Source: Flavobacteriales bacterium
GTDB lineage: Bacteria; Bacteroidota; Bacteroidia; Flavobacteriales_G; Salibacteraceae
Direction: 5' to 3'
Length of the DNA: 64,000 nt
Assembly (NCBI GenBank): GCA_018660685.1
Contig: JABJJW010000023.1
Span: 1-64,000, forward strand
The notes below the pieces were generated by a model that saw only the letters and a program-made list of their open reading frames with translations, ran no database searches and was not told the DNA's origin. This document shows, piece by piece, positions 2,193 to 19,949 of this stretch (the first letter of the stretch is position 1; every line of letters begins with the position of its first letter). Position numbers and translations under genes: made by a program.

Positions 2193-2750
2193 TTATGATG
2201 CCTCCTGATTTACAATAAGATGATTGACGCTTTCAAGCATAAATCGGGCAACGCTCTCTGCGTATCCGCCTTCTTCATTGAAATCGTGAAACTCAAAGGT
2301 CACGCCATTTAATGTTTTCACTGAATAAAAATGGAATTCCGGATCGAGGAACGAACCATCAATTTCTGACTTATATAGAATAAAATCCTCGCCTTCTTCG
2401 ACTACTGTATTCTTATACATGAGATCATTCATCATCTCTGTTTTGAACAAATTGAGATCACCACCTTCAGCGGCAACCATATGAAAAGTTGAGCCAACCG
2501 ATATAACGGTCTCACCATAACCGGTCTCTTCGATCGTTGGAATTCCACGCATTGAATCTGGAATATAGATCGAGAAAGGCATAAAGTAATCGCCTAAATC
2601 CAGTGTAGTGGTTCCGTTTTGAAGGACGGCTGGTAGATCAGTGGCCGTTGAATCATTAGCATCATCAGATGAGGCATCTCCGCCGCCGCTGCATGCGGTC
2701 AAAACCAGGAGACTGACTGTAATCAGCCAGAGGTGTCGAATTTGTTTCAT
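2193..2750 (-). CDS. putative lipoprotein of unknown function
   Basis: 185-aa protein with a clear lipoprotein signal: positive start MKQIRH, hydrophobic core, and lipobox LTAC with Cys20. A Gly/Ser/Asp-rich linker (SGGGDASSDDANDST) follows, consistent with outer-membrane anchoring in this phylum. The rest (about 45-185) is a compact globular region with no motif I recognise. The next minus-strand gene (exported protein, 1323-2156) starts 36 bp downstream of its stop. The UbiA-family gene lies upstream on the same strand with a 38-bp gap. Confidence 0.75.
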   Translation of the reverse strand: MKQIRHLWLITVSLLVLTACSGGGDASSDDANDSTATDLPAVLQNGTTTLDLGDYFMPFSIYIPDSMRGIPTIEETGYGETVISVGSTFHMVAAEGGDLNLFKTEMMNDLMYKNTVVEEGEDFILYKSEIDGSFLDPEFHFYSVKTLNGVTFEFHDFNEEGGYAESVARFMLESVNHLIVNQEAS

Positions 2751-2788
2751 AGTAGTGTGAAAAATGAGGGTGAAAAGTAAAAGAATTT

Positions 2789-3739
2789 TTAATTGATCTG
2801 GGAATATTCCAAAAGCATGTAAATCGCAAGTTGAACTATTCCTAAAAGCATGGTCAATTTCAGTCCTTGACTTAAGACTCTAAAATTGGTTTCGACTTTC
2901 CCTCTAAACAGTAACCAGAATGAAGAAATCAAAAGCATTGAAATCACCATAGCAACGATTCGGGTGGCGTTTTCGTTGGCCATTTGAAAAACAAAAAATC
3001 CCTGTGCTACAAGGGCCAAAAAAATGTTTGCCGAAATCAACCACCGAGTCAATGGCAGACCATATTGAATTGGAAATGACCTGGACCCTACTTCTGTATC
3101 TCCCTCCAAATCTTCGCAATCCTTGACCAACTCTCTAGCCAGATTCGAAAAAAACATCAGACTCCCATACACCATCAAGAGACTGACAATGGATAAATAC
3201 GTTTCATTATTGGAGGCCTTTAACTTGTTGAATAGATCCCGTTCAGCGATAATGAGTAAGGCTGGTAGCGAGGCTATCAGCATGCTGACCAGAACGTTAC
3301 CGGCAAGTCCCATTTGCTTTCCACGGTAAGCGTAAACGGTGAGCAGGATTAAAACAACCGGGTATAAAACGGTCCATTTTTCATTGCCCGTTTTAATGCC
3401 GAGGTGCAATGTGATTAGTGCCCCAACGATGACCGGAATCCCGATAAGAATTAAAAACCCGCCCAGTTTAATCTCATTTTTTACAAGAAACCTGTCGGGT
3501 CGATTCTTCTTATCAGCCGCTCGATCTCTCCAATCGTTCAACCAATAACCTATGACAGTCACCAAGATTACATCGAGGAGGAGAAGGTTAAAGTCGTCTG
3601 GCGAGAGAACCGGTTCTTGTGCTACATGCACTCTTATAGGCCATAACAAGAATGTATCAAAAACAAAATAGTACAGCGCAATAAGGGCCAGATTTCCCAG
3701 CCTAATAAATGCGATAATTTGTTTGAGTTTTTCAACCAT
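2789..3739 (-). CDS. UbiA-family prenyltransferase
   Basis: Integral membrane prenyltransferase of the UbiA superfamily, which transfers a polyprenyl group from its diphosphate to an acceptor. Two Asp-rich Mg/diphosphate motifs are present: NDWRDRAAD at residues 68-76, and DCEDLEGDTEVG near 205-217. About eight or nine hydrophobic segments surround them. At 316 aa the length is normal for the superfamily. Bacteroidota homologues are often annotated as (S)-2,3-di-O-geranylgeranylglyceryl phosphate synthase-like, but the substrates cannot be read from sequence. No menaquinone or carotenoid genes are nearby. Confidence 0.85.
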   Translation of the reverse strand: MVEKLKQIIAFIRLGNLALIALYYFVFDTFLLWPIRVHVAQEPVLSPDDFNLLLLDVILVTVIGYWLNDWRDRAADKKNRPDRFLVKNEIKLGGFLILIGIPVIVGALITLHLGIKTGNEKWTVLYPVVLILLTVYAYRGKQMGLAGNVLVSMLIASLPALLIIAERDLFNKLKASNNETYLSIVSLLMVYGSLMFFSNLARELVKDCEDLEGDTEVGSRSFPIQYGLPLTRWLISANIFLALVAQGFFVFQMANENATRIVAMVISMLLISSFWLLFRGKVETNFRVLSQGLKLTMLLGIVQLAIYMLLEYSQIN

Positions 3740-15002: not shown

Positions 15003-15695
15003 TCACTCGTTGATATCGGTAAAGCGCTGAATATCCTTCACTTGACCGAATACCATGAGCGTATCATTTTCGGTAATGGTGGTTTTGGAGCTAGGCACTC
15101 CTAGTACATGCTGTTCTACTACATGTTCTCCATTCTTTTCCTCGACAAACTCCCGCTTTATCGTAATGACGGTCAGTTTGTACTTATCTCGCAGACCAAC
15201 ATCTTCTAGTGACCGATTGATGATTCCCTTCGGCGCTCGAATTTCTACGATTTCATAGCTGTCTGGCAACTCAAGGAAACTGAGAATGTTCGGATTGAGC
15301 AATCTTTCAGCTACAATTTTTCCAATCTCATCCTCAGGAGAAAGTATCTCCGTAATTCCGAGTCTTTCTAAAATCATTCGCTGATGCTTCCCATGTGCCC
15401 TGGCGATTATTCGATTGGCGTTTAGCTCTAATAAATGAGCGCCAGCAAGTAGCAGTGCTTCAAAGTCCTTACCAATAGCTAAAACAATCGCATCCATTTC
15501 ATGAATCCCTTGACCAACCAACGCCTTTCGGTCCGTGGCATCCATAGCAATAGCATGCGCTACATCGTCTTTGATTAGCTCAACATGGGAAGGATTGTTG
15601 TCAATGGCGACGACTTCACCTCCCTTTGATGCGAGAACTAAAGCGATCGCTCTTCCAAATTGTCCAAGGCCTATTACGGCATATCTTCTGGCCAT
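15003..15695 (-). CDS. TrkA/KtrA-type potassium uptake regulatory protein
   Basis: Cytoplasmic RCK protein that gates a K+ uptake channel. Residues 1-125 form the Rossmann RCK_N domain with dinucleotide loop GLGQFGRAIA (8-17) and acidic strand end VVAIDNN. Residues about 140-230 form the TrkA_C domain. At 230 aa with one RCK unit it resembles KtrA rather than the two-unit TrkA of E. coli. The membrane partner (KtrB/TrkH) is not adjacent and is not in this window. It is divergent from the sigma/barrel chimera. Confidence 0.9.
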   Translation of the reverse strand: MARRYAVIGLGQFGRAIALVLASKGGEVVAIDNNPSHVELIKDDVAHAIAMDATDRKALVGQGIHEMDAIVLAIGKDFEALLLAGAHLLELNANRIIARAHGKHQRMILERLGITEILSPEDEIGKIVAERLLNPNILSFLELPDSYEIVEIRAPKGIINRSLEDVGLRDKYKLTVITIKREFVEEKNGEHVVEQHVLGVPSSKTTITENDTLMVFGQVKDIQRFTDINE

Positions 15696-15743
15696 TTTTC
15701 AGGTATTAATCGGCAAACATAAACTGAATAAAGATTACCAATT

Positions 15744-15774
15744 TTGAAAAAAATACATTGGGGTTGTAACTTTC
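15744..15774 (+). promoter_or_regulatory. candidate promoter of the sigma/barrel gene
   Basis: TTG at 15744-15746, a 20-nt spacer, then TAACTTTC at 15767-15774. This differs by one base from the Bacteroidota -7 consensus TAnnTTTG. It would give a leader of about 30 nt before the TTG start at 15814. Confidence 0.4.
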
Positions 15775-15813
15775 GACCTTTGACGCCGTCACAAACCCAG
15801 CAACCTAGAAAAC

Positions 15814-16893
15814 TTGAACACCAAGGACTTTAACCGAATTGTCGATGAATGGGCTGATCCCCTGTTCAGATTTGCCATTTCTATGAGCAAAGACGAGGAC
15901 GTTGCAAAGGACGCCGTTCAGGATGCATTTGCAAAACTATGGGAGCGAAAAGATGACGTTAATTCAACAAAAGTGAAGTCGTATCTCTTTACTACAGTAC
16001 ACCACAAAGTGGTTGATCATTTCAGAAGAGATCAACGTCATGATGACATTGAAACTTCAGGGATTAATCCTTCAACGCGACAACCATCCCATGATTTGCA
16101 AGAGGTGTTGCACGAAGCGCTACAAACGCTGCCTGAGATCCAGAGAAGTGTGATACTGCTCAGAGATTATGAAGGGTATAATTACGAGGAGATCGTTGAC
16201 GGTGAAATTGATGGCAATGATTCTACCATCTACGATTCAGATGATGACGACAAGAAAAAGCAAGATCATGTAAGCCATTGGGCCGGAATCAGAATCGGTA
16301 TAAATGGATATCTAGTGAACGATGCTCTTCCAATTCCAAACAGCATTGACTTTATGGAACTGGACTACTCCAGAAGCATTAGCTGGGATCTCAACTTGAT
16401 TGAGAAGGATTTCAACCTTGTCAAGGAACATGTTGAGCTGGTCACTGGCCTTGGAATGCACTTCGCATCCTACGCTTTCGATAGCAAACACACCACACTC
16501 CTTGATACAGACCCCACCTTGACTGCAGGCGTGGATTCTAGTATCTCATTCACCAAGAACAAATTGAGAGCGACATATTTAACTGCTCCTTTGATGCTCG
16601 GATTCTCAACATCTACAGATGAGGACAAAGCATTCAGACTTGCTGCTGGAGGCCAAGTGTCTTGGAGAATTGCATCTAAGCTCAAGCAACAATACACGCT
16701 TAAAGGCGATACGAAAACACTCAAGGATAAGAATGACTTCGATCTCAATCCATTCCTCTTCCACGCTGTTGGTTCAGTTGGATACGGTCCAGTAAATATA
16801 TATGCCAAGTATGGCTTAAATGAATTATTCAAGCCTGGAAAACTCGCTACGCCAGTAACCCCGTTTGATATAGGAGTACAGTTGATGTTTTAA
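15814..16893 (+). CDS. chimeric ORF: truncated ECF sigma factor fused to outer-membrane beta-barrel
   Basis: One 359-codon frame joins two unrelated proteins. Residues 1 to about 127 are an ECF sigma-70 factor. Region 2 carries AKDAVQDAFAKLWERKDDV and SYLFTTVHHKVVDHFRR. Region 4 starts at LQTLPEIQRSVILLRDYEGYN and breaks off after YEEI, before the DNA-recognition helix. An acidic linker (IDGNDSTIYDSDDDDKKK) follows. Residues 155-359 are then the barrel half of an outer-membrane protein (HWAGIRIGINGYL to the terminal FDIGVQLMF). No signal peptide precedes the barrel. The natural start is probably TTG at 15814. In relatives I would expect separate sigma and barrel genes. An internal deletion, real or from assembly, best explains this. 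A strong terminator follows. Confidence 0.8.
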   Translation: MNTKDFNRIVDEWADPLFRFAISMSKDEDVAKDAVQDAFAKLWERKDDVNSTKVKSYLFTTVHHKVVDHFRRDQRHDDIETSGINPSTRQPSHDLQEVLHEALQTLPEIQRSVILLRDYEGYNYEEIVDGEIDGNDSTIYDSDDDDKKKQDHVSHWAGIRIGINGYLVNDALPIPNSIDFMELDYSRSISWDLNLIEKDFNLVKEHVELVTGLGMHFASYAFDSKHTTLLDTDPTLTAGVDSSISFTKNKLRATYLTAPLMLGFSTSTDEDKAFRLAAGGQVSWRIASKLKQQYTLKGDTKTLKDKNDFDLNPFLFHAVGSVGYGPVNIYAKYGLNELFKPGKLATPVTPFDIGVQLMF

Positions 16894-16918
16894 TCAATTG
16901 CTGTTTAGTTAGGTTGCT

Positions 16919-16954
16919 GAAAGCCTTCTCTTACAAGGGAAGGCTTTCGCTTTT
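16919..16954 (+). terminator. Rho-independent terminator
   Basis: A perfect 10-bp stem GAAAGCCTTC/GAAGGCTTTC around a 10-nt loop is followed by GC and four T residues on the plus strand. It lies 25 bp after the stop of the sigma/barrel ORF and overlaps the stop codon of the convergent gene at 16931. Confidence 0.75.
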
Positions 16955-18325
16955 ATAGACGTGCAAGCCAGAAGTTTCGAATCGTTTGAGGAGCACAACA
17001 TTCTTCTCGGCGACACATACCGTATCCCTTTCGAAAAGCAAATAGACCGGCGACTCTGCACAGTAGTCTAGACCAGAAGCATTCACCGCGAGATTATTCA
17101 TCTCCTGGGCGTAGAAATTAATCGGCGCGTTGAGATATACCGACTTGCCAATCGTGATTGGTTCATCAGTTTCGATGCTCTCCTCAATTAACTTCATCGC
17201 ACTCTTGACATCCGCGTATTCCTTAAAGTCAACTGTATGGCTCAGATTGAATGCCAAACCAAAATTTAGACCCGTTGCCACCAAAATGCAGAGAATCCCA
17301 ATTCTTCTCATCCATGGGTGTTTTGATCGTCCGTGGATTATCACCACTGAAAACACCATAAATGGAATTAGCATTATGGCCGTTCGATCTATCAAGTACG
17401 GTGAATCCAACAGGTGGTGCTGGAGAATGGATGCAATTCCAATGGCAATTGGAATTAGCGCCGTCAAGCTGTCAGCTTTCATAAGCTGCCCTCTCAGAAG
17501 TCTCACGAAGGGAATGGCGGAAAGTAAAATGGCCAAGAGAAGCGGTGCTAAATAAGTTCCTGGTAAATTGTGGTAGCTGATAGAATAGGCCACTGATGTG
17601 AGCGTGTCTTCATAGAAACTCTTTACACCACCATAGTACAGCTCATTCGCCTCAATCAATTGATAAATTGGAAGCGAAAACAGCAGTATGGGAACCAGAA
17701 TAGCGATCGCCACATCTCGCCAAAAATGTTTGTCCCAGCTCTTATCCTTCAGGACGTTTACTAATCCAATTAAACCTATCACTATCAGATATGGCAAGAG
17801 AAAGGTAAAGTTTGCCCACGCCGCAATGATTCCTCCTACGATTGATAAGATTCGGTCGCGAGATTGTCCTTCCTCAACGTACTTAAGAAAGAAGTGCCAT
17901 GAAAACATGAGGGCTGGGAGTGCTATTCCATATCCGCGCGCCAGAACAAAGTAGTCAAGCAAATAAGGCTGATAAATCAGAACAATCAAGCCCAGCCATG
18001 CGCTCGTAGGACTAAGCCGTTTCATCACTTGAAAGGCGTAGAATCCGAAAGGAATCATGGACAGAACGACAGGCAGTCTTAGAAAGAATTCTTCATTCCC
18101 AAATAACAGCCTCATCGCATACATCAGAAGAGAATGCAGAACATGATTATTGGCTGCAGGATAAGGGATGTTAGTTATGATATGCCCTAGATTTCCACTG
18201 GCATATCCCAGAAAGGTCCAACATTCGTCGTAGGTGAAATCAAGAATTGCGGCTCGACAGAACACATAGATGACCGCTGGTGCCATTACCGTCAAGAAGA
18301 GTATTTGCTGTTGCCTAGCGTTCAT
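16931..18325 (-). CDS. GT39-like polytopic membrane protein
   Basis: 464-aa inner-membrane protein with about ten to twelve hydrophobic segments. The N-terminal layout resembles GT39/PMT-type polyprenyl-phosphate-sugar transferases: the first loop after helix 1 carries an acidic pair (FTYDECWTF, about residue 30), then an NNHVLHSLL amphipathic stretch and RLPVVLSMIPFGFYAF. The C-terminal 100 residues are a soluble extracytoplasmic tail. It lacks the KPP motif seen in the window's other two GT39 genes, so the catalytic assignment is tentative. It is divergent from the carboxylase gene. Confidence 0.65.
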   Translation of the reverse strand: MNARQQQILFLTVMAPAVIYVFCRAAILDFTYDECWTFLGYASGNLGHIITNIPYPAANNHVLHSLLMYAMRLLFGNEEFFLRLPVVLSMIPFGFYAFQVMKRLSPTSAWLGLIVLIYQPYLLDYFVLARGYGIALPALMFSWHFFLKYVEEGQSRDRILSIVGGIIAAWANFTFLLPYLIVIGLIGLVNVLKDKSWDKHFWRDVAIAILVPILLFSLPIYQLIEANELYYGGVKSFYEDTLTSVAYSISYHNLPGTYLAPLLLAILLSAIPFVRLLRGQLMKADSLTALIPIAIGIASILQHHLLDSPYLIDRTAIMLIPFMVFSVVIIHGRSKHPWMRRIGILCILVATGLNFGLAFNLSHTVDFKEYADVKSAMKLIEESIETDEPITIGKSVYLNAPINFYAQEMNNLAVNASGLDYCAESPVYLLFERDTVCVAEKNVVLLKRFETSGLHVYKSESLPL

Positions 18326-18369: not shown

Positions 18370-18377
18370 TAGATTTG
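18370..18377 (+). promoter_or_regulatory. candidate -7 box TAGATTTG of the carboxylase gene
   Basis: TAGATTTG fits TAnnTTTG exactly and lies 30 bp upstream of the ATG at 18408. The -33 triplet 20 nt further up is TTC rather than TTG. A short CCAT/ATGG inverted repeat sits just before it. Confidence 0.45.
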
Positions 18378-18407
18378 ACCCCTTCGAACACGACGGAATC
18401 CGCGACG

Positions 18408-19949
18408 ATGAAAGAGAAAATTCAAGACTTAGAAGCAAAGAAAGCCGAAGCTCGATTGGGCGGAGGAGAGAAGAGAATTGAAGCGCAGCATGCAAAAGGC
18501 AAGCTCACTGCCCGTGAGCGCATTGACTTGTTTTTTGACAAAGGCTCCTTCGAGGAAATTGGCATGCTGGTTCAACACCGCTCCACCAATTTCGGATTGG
18601 ATAAGCAAAAATTTCTCGGTGATGGTGTTATTACAGGATACGGGACTGTGAACGGTCGCTTGGTCTATGCATTTTCACAAGATTTCACCGTTCTCGGTGG
18701 ATCATTGGCAGAAGCGCACGCAGAAAAGATTTGCAAGGTCATGGATTTGGCAATGAAGAATGGTGCTCCAGTTATTGGTCTAAATGATTCAGGTGGAGCT
18801 CGAATCCAAGAAGGCGTCGTTTCACTTGGTGGATACGCCGACATATTTTACCGAAACACGTTGGCCAGTGGTGTGATCCCACAACTAAGCTGCATTATGG
18901 GACCTTGCGCTGGTGGCGCAGTCTATTCTCCCGCACTAACTGATTTCATCTTGATGGTCGAAAACACGAGCTACATGTTTGTGACCGGACCCAATGTCGT
19001 GAAGACCGTGACCAATGAAGATGTCTCAGCCGAAGAACTAGGTGGAGCAGACACGCACGCTTCAAAATCAGGAGTGACGCATTTTGCGTGTGAGAATGAA
19101 GTTGATGCACTGGAGCACGTCAAGAAGCTATTGAGCTACATGCCATCAAATTGTGAAGAAGAAGCTCCTATGCAGGAGTATTCAAGCGGAGACGAATCAA
19201 GAGATAAACTAAACAACCTCATCCCTGAGAATCCAAACCAGCCTTATGACATTCGAGAAATTGTGGCTGAAGTCGTTGACGCCAATAGTTTTTTGGAAGT
19301 GCATAAAGATTATGCAGAAAACATCGTAGTTGGATTTGCTCGACTTGCCGGACGAAGCATTGGAATAGTTGCCAACCAACCCGCAGTACTTGCGGGAGTG
19401 TTGGATGTAAATAGTTCCAAGAAAGGAGCGCGATTTGTTCGCTTTTGTGATTGCTTCAATATTCCGCTTCTTGTACTTGAAGATGTTCCAGGGTTTTTAC
19501 CTGGCACAGATCAAGAATGGAATGCAATTATTACCAACGGAGCAAAGCTTCTTTATGCATTCAGCGAAGCGACCGTTCCTCGTGTGACCGTCATTACGCG
19601 AAAAGCCTACGGCGGAGCTTATGATGTAATGAACTCAAAACACATTGGGGCTGATCTAAACTACGCTTGGCCATCCTCTGAAATTGCTGTGATGGGAGCT
19701 AAAGGCGCAGCTGAAATAATTTTCAGAAAGGAAATTTCTGCGGCGGATGATTCGCAAGCCAAATGGCAAGAAAAGGAACAAGAATACTCTGAGTTATTTG
19801 CACATCCCTACAACGCTGCAGCCAGAGGTTATATTGATGAGGTGATCAGACCAGATCAGACTCGAGAAAAGCTTATTAGGGCATTTGACATGCTAAAAAA
19901 TAAGGTAGACAACTTACCTAGAAAGAAACACGGAAACATTCCTTTGTAG
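18408..19949 (+). CDS. pccB: acyl-CoA carboxylase beta (carboxyltransferase) subunit, propionyl-CoA type
   Basis: 513-aa carboxyltransferase subunit that moves CO2 from carboxybiotin to an acyl-CoA, most likely propionyl-CoA. Signatures are the N-terminal [20 protein letters not shown], the first crotonase half with [20 protein letters not shown] and [16 protein letters not shown], and the second half with [16 protein letters not shown] and the [13 protein letters not shown] loop. The ATG at 18408 gives the usual family length. The frame opens upstream with TTG at 18375, inside the promoter. The biotin carboxylase and biotin carrier subunits are not adjacent. The epimerase at 0.9 kb acts on its product. 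The symbol follows function rather than proven substrate. Confidence 0.9.

Follow-up and report, generated by a model that had tools for sequence, protein, structure and literature searches.

An open frame joining an ECF sigma factor to an outer-membrane beta-barrel, probably the scar of a local deletion in a conserved operon

The window, by which we mean the whole 64,000-nucleotide stretch of Flavobacteriales DNA that was analysed, contains at 15814-16893 a single open frame of 359 codons, with a TTG start and a TAA stop, in which the 5' part of an ECF sigma factor gene passes directly into the coding sequence of an outer-membrane beta-barrel. The first-pass annotation had described this frame as uninterrupted, and a check of the sequence and its open reading frames confirmed that it is stop-free from end to end. 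We think it probable that a local deletion, either fixed or present as a strain variant, left this frame behind as a scar, and that the frame is a null remnant and not a working architecture. The deletion would have removed about 1.4 kb from within a conserved operon of sigma factor, presumed anti-sigma factor and outer-membrane barrel. The features are:

15765..15790, + strand: ECF-type promoter TGTAAC-N16-CGTC ahead of the sigma gene (TGTAAC/CGTC pair kept in congeners)
15814..16194, + strand: 5' part of the ECF sigma gene, codons 1-127, with region 2, linker and start of region 4 (PF04542, partial PF08281; congener identity)
16192..16195, + strand: deletion junction, with the putative common tetranucleotide ATCG (congener sigma and barrel gene sequences)
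16195..16275, + strand: acidic linker of the barrel protein, VDGEIDGNDSTIYDSDDDDKKKQDHVS (aligns with the linker of congener barrel proteins)
16276..16893, + strand: complete outer-membrane beta-barrel domain (HWAG...QLMF) and stop codon (identity to genus barrels; model; Foldseek)

Pfam searches with the fused protein placed Sigma70_r2 (PF04542), the region 2 of functional ECF sigma factors, at residues 10-75 (E 4.9e-11), Sigma70_r4_2 (PF08281) at residues 97-127, where the match spans no more than model positions 2-32 of 54, and OMP_b-brl_2 (PF13568) at residues 205-339 (E 5.3e-9). A structural model predicted from an alignment of the protein and its relatives had a mean pLDDT of 88 and a pTM of 0.60; it contained the region 2 helices of the sigma factor and three region 4 helices, the last of which ended at residue 129. 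Residues from about 131 to 155 were poorly ordered, with pLDDT below 50 for 131-143, and eight barrel strands followed from 158 to 358, with pLDDT mostly above 90. The Foldseek neighbours of the sigma half were the ECF sigma factors SigH, RpoE, and SigW, and those of the barrel half were Ail and OmpA.

The sigma half was 72% identical to the sigma factor of congener G007 and deviated at only one of 46 columns otherwise invariant among relatives. Its best family model was that of the GFO_1088/PG0214-family ECF sigma factor (NCBIfam NF058625), with 94.8 bits; the same model was also the best one for the intact congener sigma factors, with 126-128 bits, and all of these scores lie below its curated cut-off of 130. 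Unlike NF058625 sigma factors, the copy in the window is missing the C-terminal end of region 4. Its last sigma residue is I127 (codon 16192-16194), within the first helix of the helix-turn-helix, so that region 4 is incomplete and its recognition helix is absent; the congener sigma factors go on with SQVKVYIFRGRQKL. The first-pass annotation had described an ECF sigma factor ending right before its recognition helix; the identification as a sigma factor stands, and the end has to be moved to I127.

The barrel half was 59-67% identical, over the entire domain, to the barrels of the genus and of G015, a species of a sister genus. The barrel domain has the same extent as in congeners and all eight strands in the model, so it is complete, and the earlier view that only the 3' half of a barrel had been retained did not hold. 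The window protein shares the entire domain of OMP_b-brl_2 proteins, the eight-stranded OmpA/Ail-like barrels, but differs from them in having no signal peptide. Comparison with congeners, whose barrel proteins begin with an export signal (MK...FAQ), indicated that the signal peptide and about 70 N-terminal residues are missing because the 5' end of the barrel gene was deleted. As residues 1-127 are sigma factor and hydropathy in a 19-residue window reached a maximum of only 0.82, with no apparent signal peptide or transmembrane helix in the fused protein, the barrel is indeed without a signal peptide, as had been noted.

The unfused parent locus was found at the same place, as three separate genes, in eight congeners and in G015. 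It consists of a sigma gene (about 160-171 aa), a gene for a protein with one transmembrane helix (337-354 aa), and a gene for a barrel protein with a signal peptide (296-303 aa; 312 aa in outgroup G015), in that order, adjoins the same TrkA-like gene, and is followed downstream by the same carboxylase gene. Both flanks are syntenic in the window, where the TrkA-like gene lies at 15003-15695 and the carboxylase gene at 18375-19949. A search of relatives for separate sigma, barrel, and intervening genes, which the first-pass annotation had proposed, thus recovered all three at the syntenic place. The middle protein had no Pfam match; from its position and its single transmembrane helix, it is presumably an anti-sigma factor. 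It was found in 11 of 12 congeners by the same search that detected it on no contig of the whole assembly of the window's own genome, the congeners serving as the positive control. The possibility that the missing 1.4 kb had moved elsewhere in that genome was rejected on this result. Class members beyond the family (G208, G178, G285, G369, and G141) had this gene order too, with a middle protein of the same kind, and the operon is therefore an old module. What the scar exposes is a conserved and little-studied operon of Bacteroidota that has a promoter motif of its own and encodes a sigma factor, a one-TM regulator and an outer-membrane barrel. Barrel relatives were also seen elsewhere in the class (L110-L114, in G208, G364, G060, G178, and G417), some of them 481-487 aa long with a repetitive N-terminal head of the 'DVSGAGDVKA' type followed by the acidic linker and the barrel; the headed proteins of G208 and G178 lie within the same sigma operon.

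The window tracks the congener sigma factor up to I127 and the congener barrel protein (...IVDGE...) from the very next codon, the join being in frame at about 16192-16195. The stretch missing between these points is 1406-1507 bp long in nine relatives (the eight congeners and G015) and holds the recognition helix and C-terminus of the sigma factor, the whole middle gene, and the ECF-type promoter, signal peptide, and N-terminal segment of the barrel gene. At the break points the congeners read GA[GA]AT[ACT]GC... in the sigma gene and AT[CT][GA]T[TA]GA[CT]GG... in the barrel gene, from which it appears that the two parents had about 4 bp (ATCG) in common at the join. With the congeners intact and about 1.4 kb lying between the break points, these comparisons support the earlier proposal that a deletion at about 16192-16204 united the sigma gene with the downstream barrel gene. 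Intact genes with extra sequence between them in the closest strains had also been named as the mark of an artefact. That arrangement was found, but it is not proof of an artefact because a genuine local deletion would look identical.

An artefact, in which the operon is intact in the population and was collapsed by the assembler or by binning, is the less likely reading, although one that we take seriously. The draft assembly comprises 28 contigs and, like those of its named congeners, is probably a metagenome bin; in G012 and G001, too, contigs break inside the operon. Against this, there was no direct repeat of at least 10 bp in window positions 15700-17000, and the short repeats present in the parent locus of congener G007 included none joining the two break points; direct repeats were ruled out on these grounds both as the cause of the deletion and as a trap for the assembler. 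An overlap of about 4 bp is far below usual assembler word sizes. We prefer a true local deletion because the middle protein is absent from every contig, the neighbouring genes are in place to either side, and the 4-bp overlap is too short; damage of other kinds to the sigma gene in other congeners, described below, also speaks against an artefact.

Among about 440 genomes from genus to class (60 relatives, the family, and 395 class genomes) the same fusion was found in no other genome, a result which fits a deletion scar as well as an artefact and speaks against a maintained fusion, for which occurrence in more than one genome would be the sign. None was seen in viral contigs. A contig search with a single protein as query gave no match; a search with an alignment gave matches in 13 relatives, mostly the same congeners, every one of them to unfused barrel sequence. 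The first-pass annotation had raised the prospect of a new protein architecture, and this was not borne out, as the congeners have both genes intact with about 1.4 kb between them. An expressed fusion of sigma region 2 and barrel with a function of its own, for example as a cytoplasmic decoy or an RNA-polymerase-binding protein, seems to us very improbable. The frame is open throughout, sigma region 2 and the barrel are well conserved, and so is the upstream promoter; nevertheless, the recognition helix is gone, there is neither signal peptide nor transmembrane helix, the entire middle gene and the barrel promoter have been lost, and sister species broke the same gene differently, which points to loss and not gain. 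As an architecture, the fused frame is of no import.

Selection on the two halves was judged by the count of invariant columns instead of dN/dS, an attempt at which found synonymous sites near saturation between congeners (pS about 0.8); the codon comparison left out the rows for G006 and G009 in the sigma gene and for G011 in the barrel gene. Both halves are free of stops and frameshifts and have few unusual substitutions. This clean state is equally expected from a maintained fusion or from an assembly join. The constraint still apparent in both halves implies that the deletion, if real, happened recently or is a strain variant. The barrel half had unusual changes at 8 of 91 columns, the highest count, the next highest being 6 of 89, and this excess is no more than a weak sign.

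The closest real combination of a sigma system with a barrel is found in the Dma family of Bacteroides, where an anti-sigma domain and a barrel lie on one dual-membrane-spanning chain with an ECF21 sigma factor as partner (PMC13088901). The parent operon resembles the Das/Dma systems in that genes for a sigma factor, for a membrane-anchored regulator, and for a barrel lie together in Bacteroidota (PMC13088901); it differs in having the membrane protein and the barrel as separate chains, and the window fusion differs in that a sigma factor was joined to the barrel, by deletion. That the fusion is itself a Dma-like protein, with anti-sigma domain, transmembrane helix, tether, and barrel in one chain, is the most improbable of the readings considered. 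Dma proteins do end in a beta-barrel and do partner ECF21 sigma factors in Bacteroidota (PMC13088901); however, the N-terminal part of the window protein is a sigma factor and not an anti-sigma domain, no transmembrane helix precedes its barrel, and the congeners encode the one-TM protein and the barrel as separate genes.

Nearly all 13 genus members, and outgroup G015 as well, had the TGTAAC/CGTC pair about 48-54 bases before the sigma gene, with variants in G010 (AGTC), G012 (CGTAAC), and G001 (CGTT). Genome-wide, the exact motif TGTAACTT-N14-CGTC occurred 0-4 times per genome, compared with 0-1 for the reversed pattern, and stood mainly before sigma and barrel genes; in seven congeners one exact site precedes the sigma gene and another the barrel gene. 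This placement suggests autoregulation and a small regulon. In G000, G007, and G009, other sites precede genes for small exported proteins (102-105 aa), with the motif 21-26 bases upstream (G000:C28:87466-87491, L098; contig C6 of G007 and G009, L090, L099, L106, and L109) and two neighbouring copies each in G007 and G009; these proteins are likely members of the regulon. We propose that in the relatives the sigma factor is released by the membrane protein upon an envelope signal and that the freed sigma factor drives transcription of its own operon, of the barrel gene, and of genes for a few small exported proteins from TGTAAC-N16-CGTC promoters. In the window genome the barrel gene's own promoter site was presumably lost with the deletion and the first site (15765-15790) kept, which would leave the promoter at 15765 without its cognate sigma factor. 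The sigma fragment would be unable to bind the -35 element and would have no protein to retain or release it, and the barrel could not be exported, so that most probably the circuit is null. Should the fusion protein be translated, it would have no export route and no evident role, and it would probably be degraded.

The sigma gene was broken, each time differently, in four of the 12 congeners and, with the window, in five of 13 species representatives. G006 (L038) has a TAG at codon 110 and G009 (L036) a TAG at codon 87, in both cases with intact middle and barrel genes, in sigma genes that are otherwise intact, and in high-quality assemblies of 7 contigs each. The rest of the G009 gene is nearly identical to that of G007; past the stop the two differ by nine silent changes and two amino-acid changes, and since the changes are mostly silent, that stop is young. 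In G010 (L044) a DUF4372/DDE_Tnp_1 insertion-sequence transposase gene (2377-3543, minus strand) lies directly behind the sigma gene, the frame of which is cut short by about 12 codons; the middle and barrel genes are missing. In G011 (L042, 1849-4301) the sigma gene has a 5' frameshift and a foreign segment in mid-gene, and both the middle and barrel genes contain a TAA. Four of the five lesions spare region 2 and strike the linker, region 4, or sequence downstream. As the breaks in G006, G009, G010, and G011 are independent, the genus shows recurrent loss of the circuit.

As controls, another ECF sigma gene of the genus was uninterrupted in all 12 genomes in which it was found (5 of 13 versus 0 of 12 broken; Fisher p 0.024, with small counts and a comparison made after the fact), and 173 orthologous copies of 22 neighbouring genes had stops at alignment ends only. 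Outside the genus, a class-wide search gave no internal stops in sigma relatives among the matches listed, and an order-wide search gave one distant partial match (G020) with a TAA. We offer only tentatively the broader suggestion that an envelope-signalling sigma circuit is being lost recurrently, possibly under selection, while the second ECF sigma factor and the neighbouring genes stay intact. Repeated breakage of the operon makes the genus a possible setting in which to study at what point an envelope stress circuit turns costly. VLHEALNTLPEIQRSVILLRDYEGY of the relatives is replaced in frame by CWPWTVYIPNTFTPNNDGC in the sigma gene of G011; no second copy of this segment that could be its donor was found in the G011 genome, and we take the segment to resemble a gliding-motility C-terminal (CHU_C-type) domain.
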